This document shows, one piece after another, positions 9,786 through 64,000 of a stretch of DNA of 64,000 bases. How positions within the stretch are numbered: position 1 is the first letter of the stretch; every line of letters begins with the position of its first letter. The DNA comes from Nitrospirota bacterium (GTDB lineage Bacteria > Nitrospirota > Thermodesulfovibrionia > Thermodesulfovibrionales > Dissulfurispiraceae): assembly GCA_021791055.1 (NCBI GenBank), contig JAJYXI010000042.1, forward strand, positions 1-64,000. The letters are read 5' to 3'. The translations under genes and the position numbers were made by a program. The notes under the pieces are model-generated. The model ran no database searches and was not told where the DNA came from. It was given only the letters and a program-made list of their open reading frames with translations.

Positions 9786-9862
<77 letters not shown>

Positions 9863-9870
9863 GTCTTTCC

Positions 9871-9932: not shown

Positions 9933-9998
9933 GAGAACGAAAACAATGTAAAAGGACAGTTCGTCTATCGCTCACAGACCTTTTACACTAACAACAAT

Positions 9999-10028
9999 CA
10001 ACCGTTATCGTCTCCGCTCTAACCGTTG
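9999..10028 (+). repeat. 30-bp direct repeat, copy 1
   Basis: The 30 bases starting CAACCGTTATCG and ending CTAACCGTTG recur exactly at 10775-10804. Each copy contains two AACCGTT words. The two copies flank the small Cys-rich gene and its terminator. Function unknown; a protein-binding site or a recombination remnant are both possible. Confidence 0.7.
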
Positions 10029-10360: not shown

Positions 10361-10390
10361 TAATTGACAATTAATTTAATGGAGGAATAC

Positions 10391-10684: not shown

Positions 10685-10720
10685 TAAACAATCTGTAATT
10701 CTTTTTTTGTTTAACCGGTA

Positions 10721-10760
10721 AAGGGGACTGTCTCTTTTTATTCGACAGACCCCTTTTTTT
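10721..10760 (+). terminator. Rho-independent terminator after the Cys-rich gene
   Basis: AAGGGGACTGTC (10721-10732) and GACAGACCCCTT (10744-10755) pair with an A-A mismatch around an 11-base loop, followed directly by a T-run to 10760. Confidence 0.8.
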
Positions 10761-10774
10761 TATCTCCTTTAATG

Positions 10775-10804
10775 CAACCGTTATCGTCTCCGCTCTAACC
10801 GTTG
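10775..10804 (+). repeat. 30-bp direct repeat, copy 2
   Basis: Exact second copy of 9999-10028, located between the terminator and the promoter region of the mob operon. Confidence 0.7.
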
Positions 10805-10987
10805 CCCTTTAAAATCCTACACTATTTTGTACATTTCGTTGAGGTCAATCTAAAGAAAAGCTAAAGTAAAAGAAAAGGCACAGATACCTTTTTGTCACCA
10901 ATTTTCTCATATGAACATTCGAAATTTGGTGACCCCGTCCCCTAATCGGGGACACCCGCAAGCGGGAAAAAGGAGGAGGTATAAGAA
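10805..10987 (+). promoter_or_regulatory. Leader of the mob operon with oriT-like inverted repeats
   Basis: Contains a 26-base motif (10815-10840) that recurs at the 16774 promoter. A 13-bp inverted repeat with one mismatch follows (10894-10906 with 10921-10933, GTCACCAA...TTGGTGAC), then two tight hairpins: GTCCCC-5-GGGGAC (10937-10953) and CCCGC-AA-GCGGG (10955-10966). AGGAGGAGG precedes mobC. Inverted repeats directly upstream of mobC-relaxase genes are where oriT is usually found, so this is the best oriT candidate; no nic site can be assigned by eye. Confidence 0.55.
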
Positions 10988-11326
10988 ATGGCAAAAACCA
11001 AGCGGATATTTTTCAGAGTTTCAGAAAATGAGTATGGAATCATAGAATCGAAAATCAGGAGGGCATACAACATCCCAGAGCATTATGTTATTAAGCGGCG
11101 GTTAGGCGATTACATGAGGCAGGCGGCGTTAATGGTAAGGGTGGTAGATATCGAACAGCTAACAGACAGCCTCTCTGCCGTGAGGCGGGAAATCAACCAT
11201 ATCGGGCACAATGTGAACCAGATTGCACATCGGGCCAATGCAGATGGTTATGATGCTGCAATGTATGATGCAGTTTTGGACGAGCTAACAAAACTAAGGG
11301 AGAAAATAAATAACCATGCAATATAG
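10988..11326 (+). CDS. mobC: MobC-type relaxosome accessory protein
   Basis: 112 residues. The N-terminal part (KRIFFRVSENEYGIIESKI) resembles a ribbon-helix-helix DNA-binding segment. The C-terminal motif EINHIGHNVNQIAHRANADG (about residues 75-94) is the diagnostic bacterial mobilisation protein (MobC) signature. MobC proteins bind oriT and help the relaxase melt it. A strong ribosome binding site precedes the ATG at 10988, and the end overlaps the relaxase start by 11 bases, so the two are co-translated. Confidence 0.88.
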   Translation: MAKTKRIFFRVSENEYGIIESKIRRAYNIPEHYVIKRRLGDYMRQAALMVRVVDIEQLTDSLSAVRREINHIGHNVNQIAHRANADGYDAAMYDAVLDELTKLREKINNHAI

Positions 11327-12554
11327 CCCTGTAACAAAGCTTAGCAGTTTTGGAAAAGGCATAGACTCAGACCAAGCCAATGCCCGTTATATCGGGCGTT
11401 TTGGCACGTTGCAGGATGAAATGGGCAATCACATATCCCAAAAAGATAGAGCAGCGGCAGTGCAACAGAGATTAGATTTATGCCCTAATCAGGATAAATC
11501 GTCATACCGGGTTATCGTGTCTTTGCCGGTGGAGAATACAGACAAAGCTAAGGATATAGCGTTGGACGAGGTAAGAGGTCGTTATAGCACGTTTTTATAT
11601 GCGTTTCACTCCACCAATGATAAAGGCGATCCACAACCGCATTTGCACACCCTGATTTTTAACGACCAAAAGAATCATCCGTTGCGGGACAGGCAGGAGA
11701 TATTCAGGCTTAGGGATTCTATTGGCGAGAGGTTTAAAGCCAATAATCTGTCTTTTCCTGATAGCCCTGACAACCTTAAGCCTAAATACAATCAAGCTGA
11801 AATACACATGCGGGAGCGAGGACAGACGCCATGGCTGGACGACATCAGAGCCGCCGTTGAATCCTCTCTCTCCTCTGCAACAGATTTTGATAGTTTTACC
11901 GCTGCCCTCTCACAACACGGCATCAGCATTATCCGCCAGACCGCCAATAGCCTAACCTTTCAGGACTCCGAGGGCAGAAAAGTAAGGCTGAACCGGCTGT
12001 TTAGCGGGATGAAATCGAGAGCAGATATCGAGAATCTCATCCAGAAAAATCAGGGCAATGTTGACCGGCTCAGGCGCTCAGAGGCACTATTTTTGAACCG
12101 CCTCACTAAAACAGCAGAAGCCCTGAAATATCAAGGCATGGACAAACCAGAAATCCAGAATAAGATTAATAATATCCTCTCTCACAGAGCCAATATTGAC
12201 GCCCCTTCTGCCCGCTGGGAGACATTGAAAAATATGAAAACAGAACTGGACAAGGTTATGACGAGGGAGCAGTTGCAGACGATAAAACAGCAGATGTACC
12301 GCCAACAACTGATAAAACGGCATCAGTCAAAAATGCTGAAGAAAGCATTAAGGACAGGTAATCCTGTTGCCGCATTTGCTGCTGGGATTGCCTATATCAT
12401 CAACGCCATTGCCACCCGTTTTGGCGACATCAACCGGGATGGCGTAACAGAAACAAGAGAGCAAGAACTACTGAAAGATATTTTGAAACAACCAACACTA
12501 AAACCAAAACCAGAGCCAGAGCCAAACTACAATAGACCGGCTCCGGGAAGATAG
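11316..12554 (+). CDS. MobP/VirD2-type relaxase (mobilisation nuclease)
   Basis: 412 residues. The N-terminal domain has the fold markers of relaxases: YRVIVSLP (residues 64-71) and a metal-binding His triad H98, H109 and H111 in AFHS...PHLHTLIF. The relaxase nicks oriT and leads the strand into the recipient. The middle region (HGISIIRQTANSLTFQDSEGRKVRLNRLFSGM) resembles the relaxase C-terminal extension seen in MobA/VirD2-type proteins. A coiled-coil and a hydrophobic patch (AAFAAGIAYIINAIA) follow. It ends in a Pro-rich tail (...PEPNYNRPAPGR) preceded by KDILKQP, similar to tails of other proteins here. Confidence 0.85.
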   Translation: MQYSPVTKLSSFGKGIDSDQANARYIGRFGTLQDEMGNHISQKDRAAAVQQRLDLCPNQDKSSYRVIVSLPVENTDKAKDIALDEVRGRYSTFLYAFHSTNDKGDPQPHLHTLIFNDQKNHPLRDRQEIFRLRDSIGERFKANNLSFPDSPDNLKPKYNQAEIHMRERGQTPWLDDIRAAVESSLSSATDFDSFTAALSQHGISIIRQTANSLTFQDSEGRKVRLNRLFSGMKSRADIENLIQKNQGNVDRLRRSEALFLNRLTKTAEALKYQGMDKPEIQNKINNILSHRANIDAPSARWETLKNMKTELDKVMTREQLQTIKQQMYRQQLIKRHQSKMLKKALRTGNPVAAFAAGIAYIINAIATRFGDINRDGVTETREQELLKDILKQPTLKPKPEPEPNYNRPAPGR

Positions 12555-12565
12555 GAGGTATTAAA

Positions 12566-13789
12566 ATGGACTTTGCAAATTTGTATAGCGATTTGTTATC
12601 GAGGACGTCTTATCTGATGTCCTCATACAGCAACGAAATCGGTTCAACCGCCATTGCGTTGGCATTTGTCATGTCTCTATTTCGTATCGGCAACGAGGCA
12701 TGGAAAGGCGGTTACGACAAATCGATGCCGTTCATCAAAGACCAAGCAACAAAATTTTTAGTCGTTGTTGCCCTCTGTATGCCGTTTAACCTTATCCCCG
12801 GATACAACGGCAGCTTTATTACAACGTTTCCACAGGTGGTTATGAACGCTGGGTTTGAAACGGCTAAGGGAATGGTTAGTGCAGGCGGGAATTGGAGTGC
12901 ATCAACGCTGATTATGCTACCCGCTGGACTCGATGACAAAATCAGGAAACTAAAACAGGAACAGAATGCAACGGCGGCAGAGAAAGAAAAAGAATTTAAC
13001 GCTTTATGGGATGGTGACGAATTTAAGAAGGATATGAGCAAAAATGCAACATGGGGCAGTATCGGCACGTTTTTAAAAGGGTTAGCCGTTGCCGGTTTAA
13101 TACTATTGATTATGTCTCCGTTATTGATTGGTTTAGCCATGGTTGGCGGTATAGCCGGCTGGATTGCAGCGGGGACAATCGTTGTTATCGTTTTGGCGCA
13201 GATGCAGGGCTGGGCATCAGGGACAGTATCAGTCACCCCGCCAGCCTTTGAACTCTTACGATGGGCGCTGAACGAGATGGCGCAGATTATGTTTACCAGC
13301 GTTTCAACGTTTAGTTTTTACGCCGTGATGATTACAGCGGCAGTCAAAGCCGTCATTCACACGCTGTTATTTCCCATCAGTGTTGTCAACGTTGGGTTTG
13401 AGAGCAGACGGCAGATTTTTTACGGACAGGTTGCCAAATTTGTATCCCTTGCCTTAACGCCCGTTGTTGCTTGTATCGTCTTTATTGTCTCCGCCGAAGC
13501 ATTTGCCATGCTATCGGGTAAATTTGGTTTAATCGAGGTCATGCAACGGGTTTTTGTCGGTTCAACGCCAGCACAGGACGCCCCGATAATGAGCATCGTG
13601 TCATGGTTTTTCCGTTTTGCCGTTGCCTGTTTGGTCGCCCCTGCAATGCTTGCTCTACCCGTTGCAAAACTGATTTGGCAGAGCGAAAGATTTGCGGCGG
13701 AGGCAGTAGGGCAAGGATTTGCGGCGGTTAACATGATGCAAAACTGGGGCAACGTTGGGGCAAACATGCCGAGTATGCCAAGAAAATAA
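12566..13789 (+). CDS. VirB6/TrbL-like polytopic membrane protein
   Basis: 407 residues with about 6-7 hydrophobic segments, the two clearest near residues 165-215 (GLAVAGLILLIMSPLLIGLAMVGGIAGWIAAGTIVVIVLAQ). The arrangement (N-terminal periplasmic part, central helices, long C-terminal region) fits the TrbL/VirB6 family, inner-membrane channel parts of type IV secretion systems. No other clear T4SS gene is in the element. It may adapt or recruit a host conjugation machine, act in surface or entry exclusion, or be an unrelated membrane protein; I cannot decide. It follows the relaxase with an 11-base gap and a good AGGAGGT site. Confidence 0.6.
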   Translation: MDFANLYSDLLSRTSYLMSSYSNEIGSTAIALAFVMSLFRIGNEAWKGGYDKSMPFIKDQATKFLVVVALCMPFNLIPGYNGSFITTFPQVVMNAGFETAKGMVSAGGNWSASTLIMLPAGLDDKIRKLKQEQNATAAEKEKEFNALWDGDEFKKDMSKNATWGSIGTFLKGLAVAGLILLIMSPLLIGLAMVGGIAGWIAAGTIVVIVLAQMQGWASGTVSVTPPAFELLRWALNEMAQIMFTSVSTFSFYAVMITAAVKAVIHTLLFPISVVNVGFESRRQIFYGQVAKFVSLALTPVVACIVFIVSAEAFAMLSGKFGLIEVMQRVFVGSTPAQDAPIMSIVSWFFRFAVACLVAPAMLALPVAKLIWQSERFAAEAVGQGFAAVNMMQNWGNVGANMPSMPRK

Positions 13790-13805
13790 TAGGAGGGGTA
13801 AAAAT

Positions 13806-13958
13806 ATGGACAGAGAGCAGTTAAGAAAGGATGCACAGGTATTTATTGCTGGGATGAAAGAGGAGGCGGGAAGCATCGGCAGAATCACCGTTGCCGTATG
13901 GATTGCCGTTTTTGTCATGATGGCTATTTTTAACGTTATCGAGTGTATGGGATGGTAA
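13806..13958 (+). CDS. Small single-span membrane protein
   Basis: 50 residues: a charged N-terminal segment (MDREQLRKDAQVFIAGMKEEAGSIGR) and one transmembrane helix (about 28-47, ITVAVWIAVFVMMAIFNVI). The ATG at 13806 follows AGGAGGGG. It is translated within the operon right after the VirB6-like gene. Family not recognised; a small accessory subunit of the membrane protein is possible. Confidence 0.65.
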   Translation: MDREQLRKDAQVFIAGMKEEAGSIGRITVAVWIAVFVMMAIFNVIECMGW

Positions 13959-13969
13959 GGAGGGATAAA

Positions 13970-14221
13970 ATGATTAAACAAATTACAGACGCAGTAGCGG
14001 CGCAATTGAAAAAGTATTTAAAACCACAAATGAACAACATCGATGCTAAGCTGGACAGAATCAACAATCGCATTTCCAATGTTGAATCCTACATGGAATT
14101 GCAACAGATGGTGCGGGGTTATGAATTGATGTTATCGAAATTCGATAACGACATATCCGATATTTTAAACCCTAAACAGACACTGAAAAAACCAGAGAAG
14201 AACAGGAGACCGGGACAATGA
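13970..14221 (+). CDS. Small coiled-coil protein with DILNP motif
   Basis: 83 residues. A helical coiled-coil stretch (about 3-60, with IDAKLDRINNRISNVESYM heptads) is followed by SDILNPKQ and a basic tail ending NRRPGQ. The DILNP-type motif recurs in two other proteins of this element and in one of the second element. The ATG at 13970 is preceded by AAGGAGGG; the stop overlaps the next start (ATGA). Family not recognised. Confidence 0.65.
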   Translation: MIKQITDAVAAQLKKYLKPQMNNIDAKLDRINNRISNVESYMELQQMVRGYELMLSKFDNDISDILNPKQTLKKPEKNRRPGQ

Positions 14222-14442
14222 GCAAAGTCCCAAAGTCCCACGCAGAGGGACAGAGAGGGATATTTACCAGCATCGAAAAAATCTGTTTGTACATAACGAA
14301 TCTGGTTTTTTGGGTTGTTATATATGCCGTTGTTGATAGCCATTACGAGGGGGACGCCGTGTCGATGTTTTTTGGGAGTATAGTTGTATCTCACGTATAT
14401 ATTTTCTTTAAGGAGGTCAGGACATGGACATGCAATTACTAA
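14218..14442 (+). CDS. Small two-helix membrane protein
   Basis: 74 residues with two hydrophobic helices (about residues 21-40 and 48-64) separated by a short loop. Translationally coupled to the preceding gene (ATGA overlap) and overlapping the following gene by 19 bases. No recognised family. Its place suggests a membrane accessory role with the VirB6-like protein. Confidence 0.6.
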   Translation: MSKVPKSHAEGQRGIFTSIEKICLYITNLVFWVVIYAVVDSHYEGDAVSMFFGSIVVSHVYIFFKEVRTWTCNY

Positions 14443-15194
14443 AAACAAAAATGCAGCGTTGTAAAAACGCTGGGAGCATCTACTACCACAAGGGGCGCAG
14501 GGTTGCCACGTTCAACCCTTTGCCCATTGAAAAACGGGCATTAGCAGAGACACAGGAAATTATGCAACATGCAGGTGCAGGAGCTATGTTTAATGTGTAT
14601 CAATCCCTTGCTGAACGATACCGCAGCCTGATTGTCCTGTTGCCCGTTGCGCAATCGATAACGGATCAGGCAATTGCACAGGCGATGCAACGGATGCAAC
14701 TGGTCATTGCCAATGACGGCAAAATGTACTGTTTAGGCTGGTATTACGGCATCCTCTCAAAGAGGGCAAAGCTGGACGTTGCAGAGATGTTTCAGGACAA
14801 TGCAGAGCAGGCAATAAGAGATGTCAGGGAAATGTTAGTTTATGCCTTACATTTAATCCAAACGGCACAGGCGGAGATGCAAGCGTATCAACGGTCTGAA
14901 CGTTATCGAGAGAAAATCACAAACTGGGAAATCGTCAAAAAACATCTCAATTTTCCATCCCTTGCCGACACGGAAATCGAGAACCAAAAACGCAACATCC
15001 CCAACGGCGGAGCGGATTTACTGTCTGTTGAGGACGAGCGCATCTATAATTTTGTTACCAGTGCATATGCAAAACAGATTGCAGACAGCGAGGGCGCATA
15101 TTCAGAGCATCAGGCATGGCGTAGAGAGCTATTATTATCGTTAGGCGAAGACTCCGCAGGAAGCGGGGGATTAACCACAACAATGGGGAGGTGA
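14424..15194 (+). CDS. Unknown helical protein of the mobilizable element
   Basis: 256 residues, predicted soluble and almost entirely helical, rich in Gln, Ala and Met. No known domain is recognised. Start and overlap: AAGGAGGT precedes the ATG at 14424, which lies inside the end of the previous gene. It ends GLTTTMGR, another Gly-Arg terminus. Position in the mob/membrane operon suggests a transfer-related role, but nothing in the sequence shows one. Confidence 0.6.
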   Translation: MDMQLLKTKMQRCKNAGSIYYHKGRRVATFNPLPIEKRALAETQEIMQHAGAGAMFNVYQSLAERYRSLIVLLPVAQSITDQAIAQAMQRMQLVIANDGKMYCLGWYYGILSKRAKLDVAEMFQDNAEQAIRDVREMLVYALHLIQTAQAEMQAYQRSERYREKITNWEIVKKHLNFPSLADTEIENQKRNIPNGGADLLSVEDERIYNFVTSAYAKQIADSEGAYSEHQAWRRELLLSLGEDSAGSGGLTTTMGR

Positions 15195-15200
15195 TTGAAA

Positions 15201-15557
15201 ATGAGTAAAGAGTTTGACGACATTTTAAATCCGCCAAAAACAGCACAGGGACAGGGAGACGATATTATCAGTGCCGATAATATTACTGCAACGTTAACAA
15301 TCAGCAGGGCAGAACTCACACGGGCAATGCAGAAACTACATCAACTCACAGGACAGGATAGACTGCACAATGCTTTTAATCTCATCTGGTATAAAAAAAT
15401 GGACATCGCAACAGCGGAGACGATGGGTATGATTACGACCCTGTATCGATGCGCAAAGGACGGCACGGTTAAACCGCCCGTTGATTTGGACGAGTTTTAC
15501 AGGGAAACAAACGGACTGAATACAGCCCCACCATCGGGCATCAAACCAAGCATGTAA
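15201..15557 (+). CDS. Unknown protein with N-terminal DILNP motif
   Basis: 118 residues. It begins MSKEFDDILNPPKTAQGQ, placing the DILNP motif at the extreme N-terminus. The body (about 35-100) is helical and ends in a Pro-rich tail. The ATG at 15201 is preceded by GGGGAGGTG. Family not recognised. The motif is shared with 13970-14221, 15575-15796 and 59508-60371. Confidence 0.62.
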   Translation: MSKEFDDILNPPKTAQGQGDDIISADNITATLTISRAELTRAMQKLHQLTGQDRLHNAFNLIWYKKMDIATAETMGMITTLYRCAKDGTVKPPVDLDEFYRETNGLNTAPPSGIKPSM

Positions 15558-15574
15558 AAAGAAAGGAGGAAAAC

Positions 15575-15796
15575 ATGTTAAAAGAACTTGAAGCCCTCGG
15601 CAACGGAGACCCAACGCCGTTGTTTAATGCACTAAACAGCACGGCATCAGCACTAATGCAGCTAATGCCCAAACAGGACGAGGCACAGCACATCCTTGAC
15701 GTGCTTAATCCGCCGCAGATGCTACAGAGGCAACAGCCAGAACAGGGACAGGACAATTACAATTCACCAGACCTGTCCCCAAGACCGGGCAGGTAG
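15575..15796 (+). CDS. Small protein with DVLNP motif and PGR tail
   Basis: 73 residues: a helical N-terminal half (LFNALNSTASALMQLMP), then ILDVLNPPQM, a Gln/Pro-rich linker and the terminus SPRPGR. AAAGGAGGA precedes the ATG. It is the last gene of the operon; a strong terminator follows. Function unknown. Confidence 0.62.
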   Translation: MLKELEALGNGDPTPLFNALNSTASALMQLMPKQDEAQHILDVLNPPQMLQRQQPEQGQDNYNSPDLSPRPGR

Positions 15797-15852
15797 ATTT
15801 TACGCTAAGCGTAAAATCAAGGGCAGGTTAATTCCTGCCCTTTTGTTTTTTT
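15797..15852 (+). terminator. Palindrome plus Rho-independent terminator, end of mob operon
   Basis: A near-perfect palindrome GATTTTACGCTAAGCGTAAAATC (split arms, 15796-15818) is followed by GGGCAGG-6-CCTGCCC (15821-15840) and a T-rich run. This closes the 10988-15796 transcription unit. Confidence 0.85.
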
Positions 15853-16000
15853 GTTTACATGCAATTATTTTTTGTTGTTTTGTTGACATCTCATTGATTT
15901 TAAAGACATTTTAACACATATCATTATAAAATAATAGCTATTATTTGAGTTTTTTTAGTGCTAATCTTTTCCTATCAAATTTAATTTTAGGAGGTTTTGG

Positions 16001-16132
16001 ATGGACAGACAGACGGCTTTAGAGAGGGCGGGAGAGATTATCGTAAGAATGGCGGAGAGCCTTACACGGGAAGGGATGCACTCGGTCAAGGAAAAAGAGA
16101 TTAAAGAGATCGCCGAAGGATTAAAGGATTAG
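16001..16132 (+). CDS. Small ORF, 43 residues
   Basis: Charged helical peptide (MDRQTALERAGEIIVRMAES, then LTREGMHSVKEKEIKEIAEGLKD). TAGGAGG precedes the ATG by 7 bases, TTGACA at about 15883 suggests an upstream promoter, and a strong terminator follows at 16153. A free-standing unit with its own signals is probably real, perhaps a small regulator. Family unknown. Confidence 0.55.
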   Translation: MDRQTALERAGEIIVRMAESLTREGMHSVKEKEIKEIAEGLKD

Positions 16133-16152
16133 TTACGTTCCTACACAGCTAA

Positions 16153-16184
16153 GGGCAGGGATTAGTAACGTCCCTGCCCTTTTT
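16153..16184 (+). terminator. Rho-independent terminator
   Basis: GGGCAGGGA (16153-16161) pairs with TCCCTGCCC (16171-16179), followed by a T-run. It ends the small ORF unit and faces the end of the minus-strand gene at 16186. Confidence 0.85.
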
Positions 16185-16185
16185 A

Positions 16186-16749
16186 TTATTCTTGTTCAAT
16201 CCTTCTGTGAAACCTTTCTTCTATTTTATCGAGCCACTTAAGCCACTCACCACGTATTTTATCGTCTTCAAAATCTATCATATCAAACATTTCAGTTGTT
16301 ATATAGCTATTGCCTTTTATTAGACGATACAGATATTGATACTTGGATGTTGACAGAGAAGGAAACTTCCCATGTTTCTGTCTATATTTTTCTATCATAT
16401 CCATGTATTTTCTAATCACCTTTCTTTTTTTATGTGCAGCATCAATGTCTCTGAATTGACCGTATACAACGTTTCTTATTTTGTCATAGAAAATTGGAGA
16501 GACCTTTAACACATTTTTATATATGTCTTCCATATACAGCACATAACCTTGTACTGGGTTTTTAATACTATTTGATAGTGTTCTTTTCAAGTTTTTATAG
16601 CCTTTAAACTCTGACACAATGGCATGATATAGCCCAGCGTCTCGAATATCATTAATCGTTATATCCTTTAGGGCTTTATTTTTTGCAATCGCTAAATGCT
16701 TCACCTTATCTATTACCCTTTCCTTTGTCCATACTTTTGACCTTGCCAT
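16186..16749 (-). CDS. Unknown basic protein, possibly DNA-binding
   Basis: 187 residues, Lys-rich. The N-terminal 55 residues (VWTKERVIDKVKHLA, KALKDITINDIRDAGLYHAIVSEFKGYKNLKRTL) resemble the small helical repeat found in homing-endonuclease-associated and other DNA-binding proteins; this is a by-eye match only. It is divergent from the RHH gene, with a consensus promoter (complement of 16785-16813). It is the only minus-strand gene in the element and could be its regulator. Confidence 0.6.
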   Translation of the reverse strand: MARSKVWTKERVIDKVKHLAIAKNKALKDITINDIRDAGLYHAIVSEFKGYKNLKRTLSNSIKNPVQGYVLYMEDIYKNVLKVSPIFYDKIRNVVYGQFRDIDAAHKKRKVIRKYMDMIEKYRQKHGKFPSLSTSKYQYLYRLIKGNSYITTEMFDMIDFEDDKIRGEWLKWLDKIEERFHRRIEQE

Positions 16750-16773
16750 TTTCCTTATCTCCTTTTCAATTAA

Positions 16774-16826
16774 TCCTACACTAAATTATACATTTTGTTT
16801 ACTGTTATGTCAAACAAAAATATAAT
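16774..16826. promoter_or_regulatory. Overlapping divergent promoters and repeated motif
   Basis: Minus strand: TTGACA (complement of 16808-16813), 17-base spacer, TATAAT (complement of 16785-16790), serving the unknown basic protein. Plus strand: TTTACT (16798-16803), 17 bases, TATAAT (16821-16826), serving the RHH gene. The -35 regions overlap. Bases 16774-16799 match 10815-10840 upstream of mobC (TCCTACACTA, then TACATTT, then GTT), so the same repressor may control both regions. Confidence 0.65.
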
Positions 16827-16866
16827 AAAAATATACAAAACTAAATTTTTAAAGGAGGTTAAGGAC

Positions 16867-17016
16867 ATGAAAAAGACAAAGCTTTTAGCAATCAGAGTTA
16901 ACGAAAAGGATTTAAGAAAATTAGAAAAAGAGGCAGAGAAAGAACGGCTAACAACGAGCGGATTTGCCAGGCACTTGATTTTCAAAGCTCTACAGCCAAA
17001 GCACAAACAGAGTTAA
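16867..17016 (+). CDS. Small ribbon-helix-helix protein
   Basis: 49 residues, MKKTKLLAIRVNEKDLRKLEK followed by a helix-turn-helix-like half. This is the MetJ/Arc build: one beta strand (LLAIRV) and two helices, binding DNA as a dimer. AAAGGAGGT precedes the ATG at 16867. A close look-alike (MKKTKLINFKISEADYKQLKA) is encoded at 60673 in the second element. Both sit just upstream of a primase or helicase gene, suggesting control of replication genes. Confidence 0.75.
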   Translation: MKKTKLLAIRVNEKDLRKLEKEAEKERLTTSGFARHLIFKALQPKHKQS

Positions 17017-17026
17017 AGGGGATACC

Positions 17027-17947
17027 ATGAAAGACTATAATACAATACTTGATTATTTTTATAACGACAACGACCTTGTTTGTATCGCTACAATTCCCGA
17101 TTTTATGGGCAGGAAGCAGCGATTTGCAAGAATTTCAGACCTCAAAACAGAGAAATGGATTAGGTTTTTAAAAGCTGCAAACGCCAATAATTCAAATATC
17201 TATCTGTCTGTATATACGTTCAGGGATAAACAAAGAACCGAAAATGCCGTTGTGGATACTGTAGATAGGATATTTCTTGACTTTGATGCTCCGGGGACAT
17301 ATGAGCAGTTCAGGAAAGATTACGAGCCGACACTTGTCATTAATACCAGCCCGAACAAATATCAATGTTTTTTAAAACTATCAGAGCCGGTATCAAAGGC
17401 AGAGGCTAAGGCTATCAGTAAAGCGTTATCGAAACAATACAATGCAGACCACACTTTCGACCTTGCGAGGATTTTTAGATTACCAGATTTTCGTAATGTG
17501 AAATATCCTGAGCGACCGTTAGCCGTTATCAGCGAGTTTAACCCGCAGACGACTTACAGCCCTTATAACCTGCCGTGTGAGAGGGAGCTAACAAAACCTG
17601 CATCCGCAGGAGAGAAAAGAGACGATACAAACATCATCCCTACTAAAAATAACTCAAATTTGAGCCTCTCCGTGAGCCGTCAGTATGATTACAGCCATTT
17701 TCTTAATTCAGTGCCAGACAAAAATAACGGAGAACCCGATTACAGCAGGGCAGATTTTCGGTATGCTGTTTATCTTCTCTCTCAATCTCATTTTGATAGT
17801 AATGATGTTAAGGACATTTTACAAGCCGAATCGCCAATGATACAGAAAAGAAAAGGATCAGGACTCGATAACTACCTGCAAAAAACAGTAGAGAGAGCAA
17901 AGAACTATCAACAGCAGAATTACAAACCATACGAGCCGAGGAGATAA
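17027..17947 (+). CDS. RepB-type primase (archaeo-eukaryotic primase fold)
   Basis: 306 residues. The N-terminal domain has the AEP catalytic pattern: DRIFLDFDAP with D85 and D87 as metal ligands, NTSPNKYQCFLKL (residues 106-118) as the nucleotide-binding strand, and HTFDLARIFRLPDFRNVKYP (142-161) as the third motif. This matches RepB-like primases of mobile elements. The C-terminal 100 residues form a helical region like a primase C-terminal domain. It lies 10 bases after the RHH gene and shortly before a RecA-fold ATPase, forming a replication module. Confidence 0.82.
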   Translation: MKDYNTILDYFYNDNDLVCIATIPDFMGRKQRFARISDLKTEKWIRFLKAANANNSNIYLSVYTFRDKQRTENAVVDTVDRIFLDFDAPGTYEQFRKDYEPTLVINTSPNKYQCFLKLSEPVSKAEAKAISKALSKQYNADHTFDLARIFRLPDFRNVKYPERPLAVISEFNPQTTYSPYNLPCERELTKPASAGEKRDDTNIIPTKNNSNLSLSVSRQYDYSHFLNSVPDKNNGEPDYSRADFRYAVYLLSQSHFDSNDVKDILQAESPMIQKRKGSGLDNYLQKTVERAKNYQQQNYKPYEPRR

Positions 17948-17951
17948 AAAA

Positions 17952-18062
17952 ATGATAACCAAAGTTATCAAACAGAAAAATTGGCTTAATCTCATCGTTT
18001 ACGTAGGCAAAGACATCAATAACAGTGTAATTACTCATGCTGTTATCTATTCATTAAATTAA
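17952..18062 (+). CDS. Possible small ORF, 36 residues
   Basis: MITKVIKQKNWLNLIVYVGK followed by a short polar tail, starting 5 bases after the primase stop with GAGGAG upstream. No similarity recognised. It fills the gap before the ATPase gene; coding status is uncertain. Confidence 0.35.
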   Translation: MITKVIKQKNWLNLIVYVGKDINNSVITHAVIYSLN

Positions 18063-18073
18063 AGGAGGACGAC

Positions 18074-19276
18074 ATGCACACAAAAGAAAAGCCTACCATG
18101 GCAGTGGTAGGCGACAACGGAAACGGAAAAGAATCTGTTAATACAAATATAGCACAGAACGACATTGAAAATCTATTAGAAACGAGTTTCAATAAGAACG
18201 ACTATTCAAGAATTGTTGGACTTATCAGGCAAGAACCGACTGAGGTTTTTAGAAATAAATACATACGTGTTCTTTGTGAAAAATTAGGACTCGGTTTTGG
18301 TGATGTTTTACGGGACATCGAGAACCAGAAACCAAAGACAGAACAGAAGAAGCTTTCAGAAAAGTTAAGAAGTTTTGAAGATATAATCGATTCAGAAGAC
18401 ATCGAAACAAAATATGTCATTAATAAGCTTTTGCCTGAAAATTTTATCATGCTACTTGCAGGACGGCGAGGAACTAAAAAATCACTAATTGCATTAAGAA
18501 TGGCGATTGACATTGTCAGGGGGGATAGTTTTTTAACAGAGAATTGGAGAACTACAGCAACAGAAGTTGTCTACATCGATTTAGAAAATTCCATCAAGTT
18601 GATTAAAAAGCGACTCAGACTTTTAGCTTACCATTACGCATATAACCTTAAATTTCTATTGCGACAAGACATTTTGAGTATCGATATTGAAAAACAGATA
18701 GAAGAACTTAAAGAGCTTGTAAAAGACAAGGTAGTAATCATCGATACACTATCAAAAATACACAGACGAGATGAAAACAGCAACCCGCACATGACAATAA
18801 TTATGGAACACCTAATCAATCTTGCACAGACAGAGGCTAAAGCATTGATACTTCTGCATCACAAGGGCAAGGGGCTTGGGGATTTGGGCAGTCGTGGAGC
18901 TACAGCGATTGAAGATAATGCAGACGTTGTAATTGAAATTATTCCCGATAAAAACTATGTGAACTTTAAATGCACTAAACACAGAGACTGCAAAGAAGAA
19001 GATATTTCCAGACTTCTTGAAATCAATTTCACAGACGAAGAGATACAAATTAAAGACGTATCAGACCAAGAATTTAATATCTTTTTCCAACATCTCAAAG
19101 ACGAATACAACAAAGACGAATCAATATTTTCAACACAAAGTCGTATCGTTGAAACAATGAAGCCGTACGGCTACAGCAGGGAAACCGTTATAGATTTACT
19201 GTCCGAGGCTTGCGATTATGAATTACTAAAAAGAACAAAAGGCGAGAACAACAGCACGAGATATTGTTTTAATTAA
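18074..19276 (+). CDS. RepA/KaiC-like RecA-fold ATPase (AAA_25)
   Basis: 400 residues. Central ATPase with Walker A GRRGTKKS (130-137, preceded by MLLA), Walker B KVVIIDTLSK (about 223-232) and sensor-like region ALILLHHKGKGLGDLGSRGATAIEDNADVVIEI. This order matches plasmid RepA-type hexameric helicases and related regulators. The C-terminal 60 residues look like a winged helix. In the element it follows the primase, so it is likely the replicative helicase or loader. An N-terminal Gly-rich GDNGNGK stretch is not a true P-loop. AAAGGAGGA precedes the ATG. Confidence 0.75.
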   Translation: MHTKEKPTMAVVGDNGNGKESVNTNIAQNDIENLLETSFNKNDYSRIVGLIRQEPTEVFRNKYIRVLCEKLGLGFGDVLRDIENQKPKTEQKKLSEKLRSFEDIIDSEDIETKYVINKLLPENFIMLLAGRRGTKKSLIALRMAIDIVRGDSFLTENWRTTATEVVYIDLENSIKLIKKRLRLLAYHYAYNLKFLLRQDILSIDIEKQIEELKELVKDKVVIIDTLSKIHRRDENSNPHMTIIMEHLINLAQTEAKALILLHHKGKGLGDLGSRGATAIEDNADVVIEIIPDKNYVNFKCTKHRDCKEEDISRLLEINFTDEEIQIKDVSDQEFNIFFQHLKDEYNKDESIFSTQSRIVETMKPYGYSRETVIDLLSEACDYELLKRTKGENNSTRYCFN

Positions 19277-20559
19277 TGAGCGAACACTTGACAGATATAG
19301 AAGCTATCGAGTATCTTCTCTCCAATCAACAACAGGGAGAGAAGATGCCCGGAACCATAAGGACTAAAGAAAAGTGTCCAAACTGTAAAAAACAGTTTAA
19401 ACATATTGTCCGTATAGGCTTTATCTGTCCTAAATGCAAAACCACGCCTAAGAAATACTTTATCGACCTACACTATCAAAACCAGCGAATTAAGGTATAC
19501 AGCCATCGTACAGGCAGAATCCTTGACAGTTATAGTTTTGCTGGAGAAACGCTTGAACATATCAGGCATGAGTTACGCACACATACATTTGACCCCTCAA
19601 AATATATTGCATCAGAACAAGTAAAGTTTTATTTTAGTGTTGTAGCGGAGAAATGGCTTACAGAAAAGACAGAAAACGCCAACAGAGGACTGTTAGCATA
19701 TTCAACCGTAATGGAGCTTAAAAGATACAATGAGCATTATTTTAAGCCGTTCTTTGGAAACAAGGACATTAGAGACATCAGGCGATATGACATCGATGAT
19801 TTTAAATCATCCCTGCCCGACCATTTAGCACCAAAGACGATTAAGAATATTTTTACTGCAATCAAAAATCTTTTCAATACTGCATATCAAAAAGAGTTAA
19901 TCGAAAAACTGCCAACATTCCCTAAAATTGAAAATACCGAATACAACGGCTGGAAGTGGATCTCCGCAGAGACACAAATTAATATCCTGAATACAATACC
20001 AGAACAGGACAGACCTATATTTGCTTTTCTGTTTTTGCATGGAGTAAGAACAGGAGAAGCGAGAGCATTAAAATTGAAGGATATAGACATACAAGGTAAT
20101 ATTATCAGAATAAGAAGAACATGGACTAAGGGCGGGGACGGAAAAGAAATCATCAGAGAAACGACTAAACAGAAAAAGGAAAACATCATCCCCCTGCATC
20201 CTGAAATGAAGCCCTTTTTTGAATCCTTAAAAACATTTCCTGAAAGCTTTGTATTTCTGAATCCGAGGACACAAAGACCATATAGCGATGATGCACTCAG
20301 AAAAACTTGGTACAAGACAGTAAAGACATTAGGACTTGAGAATGAAGGCATCCGGTTATACGATGCCACAAGACATAGTTATGCAAGCCAGCTTGTCAAT
20401 GCCAATGTACCGTTAAATATCATATCAAAGCTTTTAGGGCATAGCAGTGTTAAAATGACCCAAAGGTATGCTCACACAAACTTAAACACCCTTCAAACAG
20501 CTATTACAACTATCAGCCTACTACCCCCTAAACAAGATAAACAAGCACGAAACGAATAG
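19276..20559 (+). CDS. Tyrosine integrase with N-terminal zinc ribbon
   Basis: 427 residues; the start overlaps the ATPase stop (TAATG). It carries a zinc ribbon (C34, C37, C51, C54), an arm-binding/SAM-like region (about 115-215) and a catalytic domain. Catalytic residues: R258 in HGVRTGE, a Lys in the TWTKGGDGK hairpin, R366 in DATRHSYAS with Asp in place of the usual His at 363, H389 in LLGHSS and the nucleophile Tyr398 in TQRYAH. It should catalyse insertion into and excision from tRNA-Asp. No separate excisionase gene is evident. Confidence 0.93.
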   Translation: MSEHLTDIEAIEYLLSNQQQGEKMPGTIRTKEKCPNCKKQFKHIVRIGFICPKCKTTPKKYFIDLHYQNQRIKVYSHRTGRILDSYSFAGETLEHIRHELRTHTFDPSKYIASEQVKFYFSVVAEKWLTEKTENANRGLLAYSTVMELKRYNEHYFKPFFGNKDIRDIRRYDIDDFKSSLPDHLAPKTIKNIFTAIKNLFNTAYQKELIEKLPTFPKIENTEYNGWKWISAETQINILNTIPEQDRPIFAFLFLHGVRTGEARALKLKDIDIQGNIIRIRRTWTKGGDGKEIIRETTKQKKENIIPLHPEMKPFFESLKTFPESFVFLNPRTQRPYSDDALRKTWYKTVKTLGLENEGIRLYDATRHSYASQLVNANVPLNIISKLLGHSSVKMTQRYAHTNLNTLQTAITTISLLPPKQDKQARNE

Positions 20560-20597
20560 GTTTTCGGTTATCTAAAGATATATATAACCGGAAAACC
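20559..20597 (+). terminator. Hairpin after integrase
   Basis: GGTTTTCGGTTAT (20559-20571) pairs with ATAACCGGAAAACC (20584-20597) with one bulged base. It lacks a long U-run, so it may be a terminator or a protein-binding site. Its right arm is part of the inverted match to 10147-10181. Confidence 0.45.
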
Positions 20598-20606
20598 AGA
20601 AAACCG
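20572..20606 (-). repeat. Inverted end repeat of the element, right copy
   Basis: Read on the minus strand, these 35 bases match 10147-10181 at about 31 positions (CGGTTTTC-GGTTTTC-GGTTATATA-ATCTTT). The pair places related sequences, oppositely oriented, near both ends of the element. Confidence 0.5.
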
Positions 20607-20713
20607 CACCGTTAAGGCATTTCTGATACCCTACCCTCTGGAAACCGCCACTATCAATTGTTTATAAAGATTGTTTCTATAGATGCTTTATTATCAAGCT
20701 TTCACAAGGAACT

Positions 20714-20775
20714 GTCCCCAAACTGTCCCCAACCACATTATGTAAAATTATTTGCGCTTATTTTTCAATAAGTTA
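20714..20775 (+). repeat. Right-end arm repeats of the element
   Basis: GTCCCCAAACTGTCCCCA (20714-20731), CCACATTATGTAAAATTA (20733-20750) and TTATTTTTCAATAAGTTA (20758-20775) repeat the left-end sequences (9872-9932) in the same orientation but mirrored order. Confidence 0.6.
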
Positions 20776-20790
20776 GACCCTGTTAATACC

Positions 20791-20813
20791 GGTTCGAGCC
20801 CCGTCCGCCCCGC
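20791..20813 (+). repeat. attR core
   Basis: Exact copy of the 23 bases at 9838-9860. The next base begins the stop codon of the outer-membrane barrel gene (minus strand), so the integration site lies directly between tRNA-Asp and that gene. Confidence 0.92.
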
Positions 20814-58685: not shown

Positions 58686-59359
58686 TACCGCTAAAGGACA
58701 TTAAATTTGTCCTGCTGGATATGGATGGAACGCTTCTTGATAAATACTTTGACGACTATTTCTGGGAGCACCTCGTTCCTGAGAAATATGCAGAGAAGCA
58801 CTGTATAACCTTTGGCAAGGCAAAAGAGGAACTGCTTTCAAAGTATAAGGACCACGAAGGCACCCTGAACTGGACAGATATAGATTTCTGGTCAAAGGAA
58901 CTGGATCTTGACATACCTGCGCTAAAAGAGCAGATAAAGCACCTCATTGAGGTGCATCCCCATGTGGAAAACTTTCTGAGGATGCTGAAAAGGCACAAGA
59001 AAAAGGTGTATATGGTAACCAATGCCCATTACAAGGTCCTTGATATAAAACTGAAAAAAACAGAAATAGGCAAGTACTTCGATAAATGCATCACATCCTT
59101 TGAAATAGGCTATCCAAAGGAAATGATGGAATTCTGGAAAAAAACAGAGAAGATATTAAAGTTTGATAAAGAAAAGACCCTTTTTATTGACGATACGGCA
59201 GAGATACTCAAGACAGCAAAAAACTTTGGGATAAAATATCTCCTCTTAAAGACAAGGGCAAATTCCAAAAAGCAAGATAAGCCGATAAACGACTTTCCGT
59301 TTTTAAAGGACTTTAAAGAACTCCTAACTCAAGACCCATCTTTCCACAAGACCTTGTAA
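58682..59359 (+). CDS. HAD-superfamily hydrolase (nucleotidase-like)
   Basis: 225 residues. Motif I LLDMDGTLLD (11-20), motif II VTNAH near 118, motif III Lys, motif IV FIDDTAEIL. The cap (DDYFWEHLVPEKYAEKHCITFGKAKEELLSKYKD) resembles YrfG-type GMP/IMP nucleotidases. Substrate not certain. Downstream is the second mobile-element region. Confidence 0.83.
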   Translation: MIPLKDIKFVLLDMDGTLLDKYFDDYFWEHLVPEKYAEKHCITFGKAKEELLSKYKDHEGTLNWTDIDFWSKELDLDIPALKEQIKHLIEVHPHVENFLRMLKRHKKKVYMVTNAHYKVLDIKLKKTEIGKYFDKCITSFEIGYPKEMMEFWKKTEKILKFDKEKTLFIDDTAEILKTAKNFGIKYLLLKTRANSKKQDKPINDFPFLKDFKELLTQDPSFHKTL

Positions 59360-59474: not shown

Positions 59475-59525
59475 TTGAACAATCGTTCAATCGTAAAAAA
59501 CCCCGACTTAAACACTGGGGGTTTT
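59475..59525. terminator. Inverted repeat and terminator at the edge of the second element
   Basis: TTGAAC-4-GTTCAA (59475-59490) is followed by AAAACCCC (59497-59504) pairing with GGGGTTTT (59518-59525), a terminator hairpin in which the stop of the 59508 gene lies. Probably terminates the minus-strand gene. Confidence 0.6.
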
Positions 59526-60371
59526 GGACTTAGGAGAGCTTGACAGGCAATCCTTTGGATTCAGGACGTCCTGCAAATCGTCCTGTTTAGAGAAATCAAA
59601 TACAGGTATTTCAACATCGTCAACGACAGGCTCAGGGGGATTGAGCTTTTCGTATGTTTCACAAATAACAAAATATGCACCCTCGCATTTTTCCGACAGT
59701 TCAGGGATTGTATTTGATACTTTTTTCATTACTTTGCCCATCATTGCCCACTGTTGGCGCAGGGCATTGTCGAGGGCTTCAGGGGACAGCTCAGGGATTT
59801 CGGCGGCACGCACAAGAGCAACAGCAATGTCCCTCTCATCCATTTTAAGGGCATCGTTAAGGTTTTTAGCGCCCAGCATTTCCAGCACCTCTGCCTTCCT
59901 GATATCCTCTGAGTTTCCGCCTATCCGAAGCCATTCCGCCGTTACATCGTTTTTATCCCACTCCCGCATCTCCGCCTGCATCTCCGCCCTTGCCCGCTGC
60001 GCTTTAAACCTTGCTGCTACTTCCTGCGCCCATTCATCCTTTGGCAGGGACATTAACCTTTCAAATTCGGCTTCAGGGTTAAGGTCTTCAATGTTTGCAA
60101 GGCATTCATCAAGGGATTTTGGTTTATCTGCAAACGCTAATATCTTTTTTACAGCACTTACAAAATCCGTTCCCTCTAACACCATCACGGCATCGACAGC
60201 ATTAATTGTCTTTTTGGTGTCCTCGTGATATGCCAGCCAATAGCCCGGGTTTTTCTTGCTTTCATAAAAATTCCAGCCGTTCTTATTGCTGCAACCAAAA
60301 TACTCTCGAAGATTAACCTTTTTTGCCAGCTCTAAATCCTCTTCACTAAATCTTTTCTTTTCCTTTTCCAT
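59508..60371 (-). CDS. Protein with CHC2-like N-terminus and DVLNP motif
   Basis: 287 residues. N-terminal 80 residues (LAKKVNLREYFGCSNKNGWNFYE, YWLAYHEDTKKTINAVDAVMVLEGTDFVSAVKKILAFA) resemble a degenerate CHC2/primase zinc-ribbon domain without the full set of cysteines. A charged helical region follows, and the tail contains QDVLNPKDC. The same DVLNP motif recurs in the tRNA-Asp element. No family is confidently recognised. Divergent from the RHH/helicase genes, it may be the primase-like partner or a regulator of replication. Confidence 0.6.
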   Translation of the reverse strand: MEKEKKRFSEEDLELAKKVNLREYFGCSNKNGWNFYESKKNPGYWLAYHEDTKKTINAVDAVMVLEGTDFVSAVKKILAFADKPKSLDECLANIEDLNPEAEFERLMSLPKDEWAQEVAARFKAQRARAEMQAEMREWDKNDVTAEWLRIGGNSEDIRKAEVLEMLGAKNLNDALKMDERDIAVALVRAAEIPELSPEALDNALRQQWAMMGKVMKKVSNTIPELSEKCEGAYFVICETYEKLNPPEPVVDDVEIPVFDFSKQDDLQDVLNPKDCLSSSPKSKTPSV

Positions 60372-60672: not shown

Positions 60673-60816
60673 ATGAAGAAGACAAAACTTATCAACTTCA
60701 AAATTTCGGAGGCTGATTACAAACAGCTTAAGGCAGAGGCAGACAAATTAAGGATACCTTTGTCATCACTTATCAGAACAAAAATTTATACGGCGGAGGC
60801 GGTGAACCATGAATAA
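60673..60816 (+). CDS. Small ribbon-helix-helix protein, second element
   Basis: 47 residues: MKKTKLINFKISEADYKQLK then AEADKLRIPLSSLIRTKIYT. One strand plus two helices, as in Arc/MetJ or plasmid regulators, and the same MKKTKL start and layout as 16867-17016. GAGGAGGT precedes the ATG. It lies upstream of the helicase gene. Not reported by a 60-residue ORF cut-off. Confidence 0.7.
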   Translation: MKKTKLINFKISEADYKQLKAEADKLRIPLSSLIRTKIYTAEAVNHE

Positions 60817-60942: not shown

Positions 60943-62445
60943 ATGAATCCAAAAGAAAGCGCCCTGCCGGGCAATGGGCAGGGCAACAACCAAGAGAACA
61001 ACAACGGGAACACTAATCCAAATAATAGCATAAATGATGAAAACAATTATATATGGTTTCCGGGGACAACAACAGAAACTACTGCTAAGAAAAAGAACGA
61101 GCAATTAGAGATGATACGACATAAGCTTGCCGTAGGACGTTGTGGAAGTGTACAGATGTATTATGACCACAGAGCGGGGAGTTATTTCATTATAAATAGT
61201 AATGATGAAACCATATTCGTCAAAGAGACAGGCGCTAAAAAACTAATTTATGATGTTTTTGGTGTATCAGCTAAAGAAGCTGGGCAATTACTCTATGACG
61301 TCCAGAGTGTATATCGGATTTTCGATCCATCAGCACCGGAAATACAATACCGAGGCGAAGGCGAACCCGCATATCTGAATATGTTCACGCCTTCCAGATA
61401 TATGCAGATTGCAGCAGCCGAGACGGAAGACAGCGAAAGAATTAAGGATATGGACTGGGAGCAGTACCCAGCGGTCAGGCTATTACTCGGCAATGTTTTT
61501 GGCGATGATGAAAAGGCTGTAATTTATTTTGTGAATTGGCTAAGCGCAATTATCAACACAAGAAAGAAAATGAAAACAGCTATCGTCTTAAAGGGCAATC
61601 AGGGGACGGGTAAGGGTGTGCTGTTTGACTATGTAATTAGCCGAGCCGTTGGGCAAAAGTATTGCACGACTGTTTCCAACGAGGAGTTACGGAGCGACTT
61701 TAACGACTGTATGGACAACAAATTGTTTGTCGCGTTTAATGAAGTTAAGGCGGATATGCATGAACGCTCAACAATTTACGAACGTCTCAAGGCTTATATC
61801 ACAGACGATAAAATCATTATCAACGGCAAATACAGGCAGGCGGTGCAGCAGAGCCAATATTTTAACTGTATCGTTTTCTCGAACCATGAAATCCCACTAC
61901 AAATTGAGTGGAGCGACAGAAGGTACAGCGTGTTTGAAACATCGCTACATAAACTGCCAGAAGTGGTTAATCGTGAATATGGCAATGACGTTACCATGAG
62001 CGAATGGATAGGGAGTATCCTACCGCCGGAAGTGGATGAATTTCTTATCGATGTGGCACGATACGACTATAACATCGAAACTGCCATGACAGCACTTAAG
62101 ACATCCGCAAAGAAAAGAATCCAAGAATCCACGACAACCGCAATCGTAAAACTCATATCTCACATGAGAGAAAAAGATATTGACTGGTTATCGGTAGAAT
62201 TAATGCCCTTGTGCGAGGGGAAACAGTCAGAGGGGACATTAACGAATCAGTTTGAAAAACTCGAAAAATTTCTAAAAGAAGTAGAGGCAAACAAATATAC
62301 ACAGGACACGTTGAAATGGGTATACCATATTTATATCGGCTTGGAGCAAAACGAGCGGAAAATTTGGCAGACATGGACATCCTACATCGGGCATACATAT
62401 GCCACCTGTGGGGTCAGATACAGGAGTTTCGAGCGCACTAAATAG
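60943..62445 (+). CDS. P4/DUF5906-type phage/plasmid helicase
   Basis: 500 residues. After an Asn/Gln-rich N-terminus (residues 1-45), the SF3 core has Walker A LKGNQGTGKGVLFDY (about 215-229), Walker B KLFVAFNEVKAD and IVFSNHEIPLQIEWSDRRYSVFET (motif C-like). This matches the primase-helicases of satellite phages and plasmids and DUF5906 proteins. AAGGAGAT precedes the ATG. It should unwind at the element's origin; the adjacent 62443-62713 repeats are the candidate origin. Confidence 0.8.
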   Translation: MNPKESALPGNGQGNNQENNNGNTNPNNSINDENNYIWFPGTTTETTAKKKNEQLEMIRHKLAVGRCGSVQMYYDHRAGSYFIINSNDETIFVKETGAKKLIYDVFGVSAKEAGQLLYDVQSVYRIFDPSAPEIQYRGEGEPAYLNMFTPSRYMQIAAAETEDSERIKDMDWEQYPAVRLLLGNVFGDDEKAVIYFVNWLSAIINTRKKMKTAIVLKGNQGTGKGVLFDYVISRAVGQKYCTTVSNEELRSDFNDCMDNKLFVAFNEVKADMHERSTIYERLKAYITDDKIIINGKYRQAVQQSQYFNCIVFSNHEIPLQIEWSDRRYSVFETSLHKLPEVVNREYGNDVTMSEWIGSILPPEVDEFLIDVARYDYNIETAMTALKTSAKKRIQESTTTAIVKLISHMREKDIDWLSVELMPLCEGKQSEGTLTNQFEKLEKFLKEVEANKYTQDTLKWVYHIYIGLEQNERKIWQTWTSYIGHTYATCGVRYRSFERTK

Positions 62446-62713
62446 CACACCTTAGCACAGAATAGCACACTAAAAATTGGCTTAGTGTGCTATTCTTTTT
62501 TCTTTTTAATTCAAAGACTTAACCCCGTTTTAGCACACTTAGCACAGTAATTTTAAAAAAAACTCTTTTTAAATTTCTTCTCTCTTTCCCCCTCTGCTAT
62601 TTCTCTTATACTTTTTTTTCTTATTTTTACTGTGCTACTGTGCTAAAAGATAGATAAGTATATGATATTATTGTGCTTTTTGATAGCACACTTGATAGCA
62701 CACTTGTAGCACA
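62443..62713. repeat. Iteron-like TAGCACA repeats with AT-rich core (putative origin)
   Basis: TAGCACA occurs eight times on the plus strand (62443, 62453, 62463, 62531, 62540, 62684, 62696, 62707) and three times inverted (62486, 62631, 62639). The pairs at 62531-62546 and 62631-62645 form a near-perfect inverted repeat flanking about 85 AT- and pyrimidine-rich bases. Iterons plus an AT-rich stretch next to a replication helicase is how plasmid and satellite origins look. Confidence 0.65.
62460..62507 (+). terminator. Rho-independent terminator of the helicase gene
   Basis: GAATAGCACACTAA (62460-62473) pairs with TTAGTGTGCTATTC (62482-62495) around an 8-base loop, followed by TTTTTTCTTTTT. 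The stem consists of two TAGCACA repeats in inverted orientation. Confidence 0.85.
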
Positions 62714-63126: not shown

Positions 63127-63984
63127 TTATATCCATCGCCCAGCCATAAAACCCCCGGCGATGAGGACAACGAACAGCAGTATCATCCACAACGGAATAC
63201 CTGTTTCTGCATATGCTGCATCCCTCTCTGTTGTGAGTTTTGTAATTTCAGACTCCATCGATTCAACAACAGACTGCAAGCGTTCCACTTCAGCCTTGCC
63301 AGCTTCCGTTTCAGCTTTCAGACTGTTGTTTTCATTTTCCAAACGGTTCAACGCAGACTCCAGCCGCTCGGTCTTTTCGACCTCGGACTGTAGACTGCTT
63401 TTTATCCTATCTTTTTCTTTTCCTTGAGCCGTAATCCTTTCGCAGTTATCGCAATCTTTTTCTTTTCCTTGAGAGAGTTCTTGAGCCTCTGCCCTTGCCT
63501 CGGCTATTTCTGCCGTTAGCCTATCGCATTTACCTTGCAGGTTAGTTTTGTGTTCTGCCAGCCTTTCTGTCTCCGCCTGTAGCTCCGCCCTTTCCCTGTC
63601 CATCTCCGCCATCTTTTCGCACGCCGAACAGTCAGGAGCCGGGGATGCCCTTAGCTCCTCTATCTCCTGTTTGAGGTCGGCGATTTGCAGCAGGGTTGTT
63701 GTTAGTTCTGTTTTCGTTTCGCATTCCGAGCAATCAGCAGAGATTTTGATTGTCTCCTCGGCGGCGGCGAGGTCTTTTTGGAGTTCTTTTACCTGTATAC
63801 AGTCCTCACAGTTTTGATGTATACAATCATCGTTATTCTTGTATACATCCTTGTATACAGCCGGATTATCCTGTATACAGCCTGTAACGATGCCCTTAGC
63901 GTAATCGTTTACGCTACCCTGTGTTTTTAATTTTAACCCTTCAAATTCGTCTTCTGAGACCCTGAAACTGATTACTTTACTCAT
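63127..63984 (-). CDS. RHH-like, CxxC-rich coiled-coil protein with C-terminal membrane anchor
   Basis: 285 residues. The N-terminus MSKVISFRVSEDEFEGLKLK fits a ribbon-helix-helix segment. A long coiled coil (about 65-260) carries spaced Cys pairs: CIHQNCEDC (54-62), CSEC (about 85-88), CSAC (about 118-121) and CDNC (about 176-179). The end is a transmembrane helix (about 262-282, GIPLWMILLFVVLIAGGFMAGRW). So it could bind DNA, bind metal or form disulfides, and sit in the membrane. It may tether the element's DNA. GGAGGT precedes the ATG. Not matched to a known family. Confidence 0.7.
   Translation of the reverse strand: MSKVISFRVSEDEFEGLKLKTQGSVNDYAKGIVTGCIQDNPAVYKDVYKNNDDCIHQNCEDCIQVKELQKDLAAAEETIKISADCSECETKTELTTTLLQIADLKQEIEELRASPAPDCSACEKMAEMDRERAELQAETERLAEHKTNLQGKCDRLTAEIAEARAEAQELSQGKEKDCDNCERITAQGKEKDRIKSSLQSEVEKTERLESALNRLENENNSLKAETEAGKAEVERLQSVVESMESEITKLTTERDAAYAETGIPLWMILLFVVLIAGGFMAGRWI
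63794..63879. repeat. Five TGTATACA palindromes inside the RHH/CxxC gene
   Basis: TGTATACA, a perfect 8-bp palindrome, occurs at 63794, 63818, 63840, 63852 and 63872. They fall within the first 65 codons of the 63127-63984 gene. The final bases of the window (TGTAT, 63996-64000), just upstream of the ATG, may begin a sixth. Operator or centromere-like sites are suggested. Confidence 0.65.
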
Positions 63985-64000
63985 ATTTGACCTCCTGTAT

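Follow-up and report, generated by a model that had tools for sequence, protein, structure and literature searches.

A phased palindrome array at the start of a predicted membrane-protein gene in an integrative mobilizable element

Gene Y (63127..63984, minus strand) begins within an array of the 8-base palindrome TGTATACA, of which 13 perfect copies lie in 376 bp (C58:63794-64169). Selection acts on the DNA of this array, and gene and array both sit in an ~11.6-kb integrative mobilizable element that is integrated in the chromosome. We give about an even chance to the reading that Y is a self-regulating, array-binding membrane tether that would serve segregation and/or positioning of the relaxosome. 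The window referred to below is the whole stretch of DNA analyzed (64,000 nucleotides, positions 1-64,000 of the contig); the contig, C58 (85,662 bases), uses the same numbering.

The TGTATACA array and the constraint on its DNA

Five perfect TGTATACA sites had been listed within Y in a preliminary description of this DNA, and all five are exact (63794, 63818, 63840, 63852, and 63872, with spacings of 24, 22, 12, and 20). They are the only copies in the window apart from one cut by the window end, and at least five copies arose in 0 of 100 shuffles. The truncated copy, previously noted as a possible sixth, is real: it can be read in the contig (63996-64003), where seven further perfect copies lie beyond the window (C58: 64018, 64041, 64059, 64071, 64095, 64128, and 64162). 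One-mismatch copies occur at 64007 and 64084, both within gaps of the array. The sites fall into an in-gene block (63794..63879), with five perfect copies just downstream of the codons for the probable ribbon-helix-helix (RHH) N-terminus of Y, and an upstream block (63996..64000, on to C58:64169) that is cut by the window end and has eight perfect and two one-mismatch copies. The array thus straddles the start of Y, reaching some 190 bp into the gene, and covers the control region shared with a divergent mobC-relaxase operon; the site at 63996-64003 abuts the Shine-Dalgarno sequence of Y. No other 8-mer in the 80 kb that we examined clusters as strongly as TGTATACA (13 per 400 bp, versus at most two for any other palindrome), and the whole genome (2.55 Mb) holds 41 copies and no second cluster.

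The perfect sites share a period of ~11.1 bp (R = 0.79; probability ~0.0008 when positions are drawn at random inside the two blocks). This period was picked by scanning 9-13 bp with data and controls treated alike. The one-mismatch copies fill gaps at steps of 11-13 bp. Within the gene, the peptides of Y that are compatible with a site are CIQ, AVYK, DVYK, CIH, and CIQ, and they use two reading frames (CIQ/CIH versus AVYK/DVYK). Because all five, in both frames, take the site-making codons (joint probability of the five choices 4.4e-6, given the codon usage of the contig), we conclude that selection acts on the DNA. The array extends from coding into noncoding sequence, and the spacers between sites are unrelated to each other.

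The codons for the presumed RHH domain (63880-63983) contain zero TGTATACA sites, and sites resume directly after them, which would fit a conflict between protein and DNA constraint. The flank of the sites is asymmetric, with C at position -2 in 11 of 13 when read in one direction (P 6e-6). Such a directional flank around a palindromic core resembles that of direct-repeat centromeres.

Protein Y and the element that carries it

Y has 285 aa, with an ATG start codon preceded by GGAGG, and can be divided into a probable RHH N-terminus, a linker encoded by the array, a coiled coil with CxxC motifs, and a C-terminal hydrophobic helix. The four CxxC motifs reported earlier are present at residues 59-62, 85-88, 119-122, and 178-181. 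AlphaFold2, run without homologues, predicts long helices with confidence within residues 53-260 (the coiled coil) and, with moderate confidence, a terminal helix at 265-281 over the hydrophobic stretch IPLWMILLFVVLIAGGFMAG. Sequence and model bear out the coiled coil and hydrophobic C-terminal helix of the domain build first proposed, and its RHH N-terminus is just probable.

The assignment of residues 1-~38 to the RHH fold draws on several signals. The N-terminal sequence, MSKVISFRVSEDEF, is typical of RHH proteins, and hhalign against a profile of five RHH sequences hand-picked from this analysis gave 79.7%, with the strand and first helix covered. Y can also be aligned in register with two RHH proteins encoded on this contig, and of the three best local alignments of its N-terminus to the 475 ORFs of the contig, two are to RHH proteins. 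Pfam gave no RHH match for Y, including when the N-terminus was searched alone, and PDB gave no match for the N-terminus. The AlphaFold models are weak over this region (pLDDT ~44 and ~60), and a fold of residues 1-52 returned, at low confidence, the first strand and helix with the second helix missing. Neither DUF536 nor a wHTH was among the Pfam matches listed (25, at E<=1), nor did either appear with the N-terminus alone.

Homologues of Y were found neither in its own genome, besides Y itself, nor in the plasmids, phages, or viral contigs searched, nor in 84,980 genomes (by a search sensitive to close relatives only). By sequence comparison, Y is thus an apparent orphan among the collections searched. 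No triple TGTATACA array occurs in 395 other genomes of the phylum, and a literature search for the motif returned no relevant bacterial mobile-element system among the matches listed.

The surrounding element (B, 59311-70899) is classified as integrative and mobilizable because it has an integrase, flanking candidate att repeats, and a relaxase, without a full conjugation apparatus. Candidate attL (59311..59330, plus strand) is a 20-bp direct repeat, CTTTAAAGAACTCCTAACTC, whose partner lies beyond the integrase (C58:70880-70899). It is followed by a 287-aa protein that carries a C-terminal DVLNP motif and is of unknown function (59508..60371, minus strand), a 47-aa RHH-like ORF that could be a third array binder (60673..60816, plus strand), a DUF5906/VapE-like primase-helicase of P4 type that is the candidate replication protein of the element (60943..62445, plus strand), a second array, made up of TAGCACA and unrelated to TGTATACA (62443..62713; 11 copies in both orientations, directly 3' of the rep/primase gene), Y, and the TGTATACA array. 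The TAGCACA array is a likely candidate for an iteron-type replication origin. After the TGTATACA array come a NikA-like/MobC protein, a MobA/VirD2-type relaxase, a TrbL-like protein, small proteins, an excisionase-like HTH_17 protein, and a tyrosine integrase; Y is divergent from the mobC (NikA-like)-relaxase-TrbL-like genes.

A sister element, A (9838-20813), lies in tRNA-Asp on the same contig. The two elements are alike in the C-terminal part of the relaxase (75%), in the TrbL-like protein (83%), and in small proteins, and they differ in the NikA-like protein, the relaxase N-terminus, the replication genes, and the integrase. The breakpoint between them falls inside the relaxase: mobC, the relaxase N-terminus, and the upstream region change together, with 75% identity over the remainder of the relaxase. 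Element A has neither Y nor TGTATACA, and gene and array are therefore absent together in the one comparison available; searches for relatives of the relaxase or the TrbL-like protein returned only element A and one distant TrbL-like protein.

In both elements, a TrbL/VirB6-like membrane protein lies beside the relaxase (C58:65822-67045 in B; window 12566-13789 in A), and a full transfer apparatus was seen in neither. The single match to a coupling protein in the genome is on contig C25, beside an actin-like gene, and this locus is a possible helper for mobilization. There (L217, G000:C25, 4824-7986), the genes for the coupling protein, a small RHH-like ORF, and an actin-like (ALP/ParM) protein are adjacent, and the locus is possibly a conjugative helper with its own partition system. 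The motif D(V/I)LNP occurs in seven proteins of the two elements (13943-14221, 15195-15557, 15575-15796, and 59508-60371, and in C58 67226-67486, 68566-68928, and 68944-69168) and is absent from the remaining ORFs in the 80 kb; it is perhaps a shared docking or secretion signal.

Possible roles of Y and its array

In layout, the Y locus matches the stbA/stbDR/MOB region of R388. There, the oriT region has the stb operon on one side and the MOB operon on the other, transcribed away from it, and the stb promoter is surrounded by 9-bp repeats with 2-nt spacers (11-bp steps), in two sets of five (PMC3098194). As with R388 StbA/stbDR (and RP4 TraK), the Y gene is divergent from MOB genes beside oriT, and as with the stbDRs, the array forms two blocks around the promoter of Y with a unit of ~11 bp. 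StbA, like the putative binder Y, is a single DNA-binding protein, and it affects both stability and transfer (PMC3098194). However, R388 has an stbABC operon and nonpalindromic 9-bp repeats, and its sites do not extend into the gene as those of Y do; Y also differs from StbA in its long coiled coil, C-terminal hydrophobic helix, and probable RHH domain.

In domain plan, Y matches RocS and pSK1 Par, one-protein partition systems without an NTPase, although its own DNA-binding domain is just probable. RocS of Streptococcus pneumoniae has a DNA-binding domain, a coiled coil, and a membrane helix, and a DNA-membrane tether model has been proposed for RocS and pSK1 Par (PMC11500499). These carry a wHTH (MerR-type) and DUF536 plus an amphipathic helix, whereas Y has an RHH-like N-terminus instead of an HTH, a CxxC coiled coil, and a hydrophobic helix. 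A further parallel is ParR/parC (type II, ParMRC), in that phased short repeats lie close to the operon that encodes a probable RHH protein; ParR proteins are RHH proteins on direct repeats, which are 11 bp in R1 (PMC9426499). ParR partners the actin-like ParM, whereas no ParM gene was recognized in the element of Y (the ParM-like family had no match among its scanned proteins and one on contig C25), nor was any partition NTPase; the membrane helix predicted in Y is absent from the ParR description. Finally, Y resembles NikA/MobC proteins in its probable RHH N-terminus, which aligns with that of the NikA-like protein of element A, and in lying on the oriT side of mob genes, but NikA/MobC proteins are small, without coiled coil or membrane helix, and the element has a NikA-like protein of its own as well.

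If Y is a membrane tether, RHH dimers formed by its N-terminus would occupy the TGTATACA array with cooperativity and on one helix face (the 11.1-bp period). The coiled coil would multimerize Y and serve as a spacer, the CxxC motifs would perhaps cross-link it or bind metal, and anchoring in the inner membrane would fall to the C-terminal helix. On the DNA, Y would lie over the promoter and ribosome-binding site of its own gene and over the promoter region of the mobC-relaxase operon on the other side, so that a single complex would set both the level of Y and mob expression; in coating the array, Y would repress itself and probably also mob. After excision, while the element replicates, the tether would serve to position its DNA or to segregate it and/or keep oriT at the membrane for mobilization. 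The array and its phasing, the selection on its DNA, the element context, and the gene order are observed, and the coiled coil and hydrophobic helix are predicted; we infer the RHH fold, array binding, membrane anchoring, repression, and the role in segregation or transfer; the coating, self-repression, and membrane tie in particular are drawn from the parallels with R388, RocS/pSK1 Par, and ParR/parC.

The preliminary description proposed a DNA-binding protein with a membrane anchor acting on repeats in its own gene. As an architecture this is upheld, with an array that is longer than first described, phased, kept at the DNA level, and located at the start of Y beside mob genes. The segregation or tethering and autoregulation roles suggested with it stay conjectural, and to them we add, as an equally serious reading, a role at the relaxosome and oriT, because the locus is an integrative mobilizable element and the array lies in a divergent mob control region. 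Points against a tether are that the RHH match of Y covers only the first strand and helix, that no homologue of Y turned up in the collections searched, that an integrated element needs partition only after excision, that no partition NTPase was recognized in the element, and that it encodes two further RHH proteins (the NikA-like protein and the 47-aa RHH-like ORF). If the tether reading is true, the membrane-tether idea would reach another DNA-binding fold and mobilizable elements, and this element, at 11.6 kb and with a single candidate gene and a sharply bounded array, would make a small test case. It is unlikely, in our estimate, that the locus represents a new class of single-gene centromere, in which an RHH/coiled-coil/membrane protein and an array lying partly in its own coding sequence and partly in the mob control region would form one complex that tethers the excised element, controls how strongly mob is expressed, and delivers oriT to the transfer pore.

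The alternative that survives best, although we also consider it rather unlikely, is that the array belongs to oriT and has the NikA-like (MobC) RHH protein as its binder, Y being a separate membrane protein (e.g., a relaxosome-to-pore connector) whose gene starts inside oriT by chance. The NikA-like gene has a confident RHH family match and begins at a distance of ~105 bp from the array, the DNA between the array and mobC contains imperfect hairpin-like repeats (64170-64240), and the joint change of mobC, relaxase N-terminus, and upstream region between A and B points the same way. However, the array is centered on the start of Y and runs 190 bp into it, and element A has a NikA-like protein yet neither Y nor array, with one element per observation. 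Because both proteins differ between A and B, this comparison does not tell which of the two is the binder.

We regard as improbable that the array is a replication origin, with TGTATACA serving as iterons for the DUF5906/VapE-type Rep or another initiator. Some viral TGTATACA arrays do lie directly 3' of a DUF5906/VapE gene (L013 and L039) or in or beside DnaD-like helicase-loader genes, but in this element the site 3' of the rep gene is occupied by the 11 TAGCACA copies, which makes an origin at TGTATACA less likely, and the TGTATACA array lies at a distance of 1.35 kb, most of which is taken up by Y. Plain autoregulation, in which the sites would be operators through which Y represses its own gene and the mob operon without any part in tethering, is more improbable still: it would suit the site abutting the Shine-Dalgarno sequence and the coverage of the divergent control region, but a phased set of 13 perfect sites and two near-perfect ones, spread over 376 bp, exceeds the needs of a promoter, some 190 bp of array lie inside the gene, and the membrane helix and coiled coil are left unexplained. 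Chance, protein repeats, or tandem duplication as the cause of the clustering is refuted, with next to no probability left to it: three of the five in-gene sites do encode CI(Q/H), but two frames, the codon choice, the noncoding continuation, and the unrelated spacers stand against such an accident.

Arrays of TGTATACA in viral DNA

Mobile DNA repeatedly carries short phased arrays of TGTATACA. In viral contigs, triple arrays occur at 85 loci, versus 31, 27, and 48 for three control palindromes of the same composition, and their spacings peak at 11, 22, and 33 (the control AGTATACT likewise peaks at 22). Their neighbors are rich in replication proteins, above all DnaD-like helicase loaders, with matches for 18 of 126 neighboring ORFs. 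Since many of the viral arrays belong to replication genes, we take them as a recurrent type of array and not as relatives of Y; they are probably read by unrelated proteins, and because phage arrays are often located inside replication genes or next to them, an RHH binder cannot be read from the motif by itself. The RHH-like neighbors of some viral arrays are suggestive (L049, and by eye L029, L042, and L073), with weak Pfam support for L049 only.

At L055, the gene that follows the array was read as encoding an actin-like segregation ATPase. In L024, L040, L052, L078, and L088, the arrays lie within phage DnaD-like replication genes, as if an origin were written into the gene of its initiator. 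One viral contig (L091:1245-1448) has 16 copies of TGTATACA at 11- and 16-bp steps.
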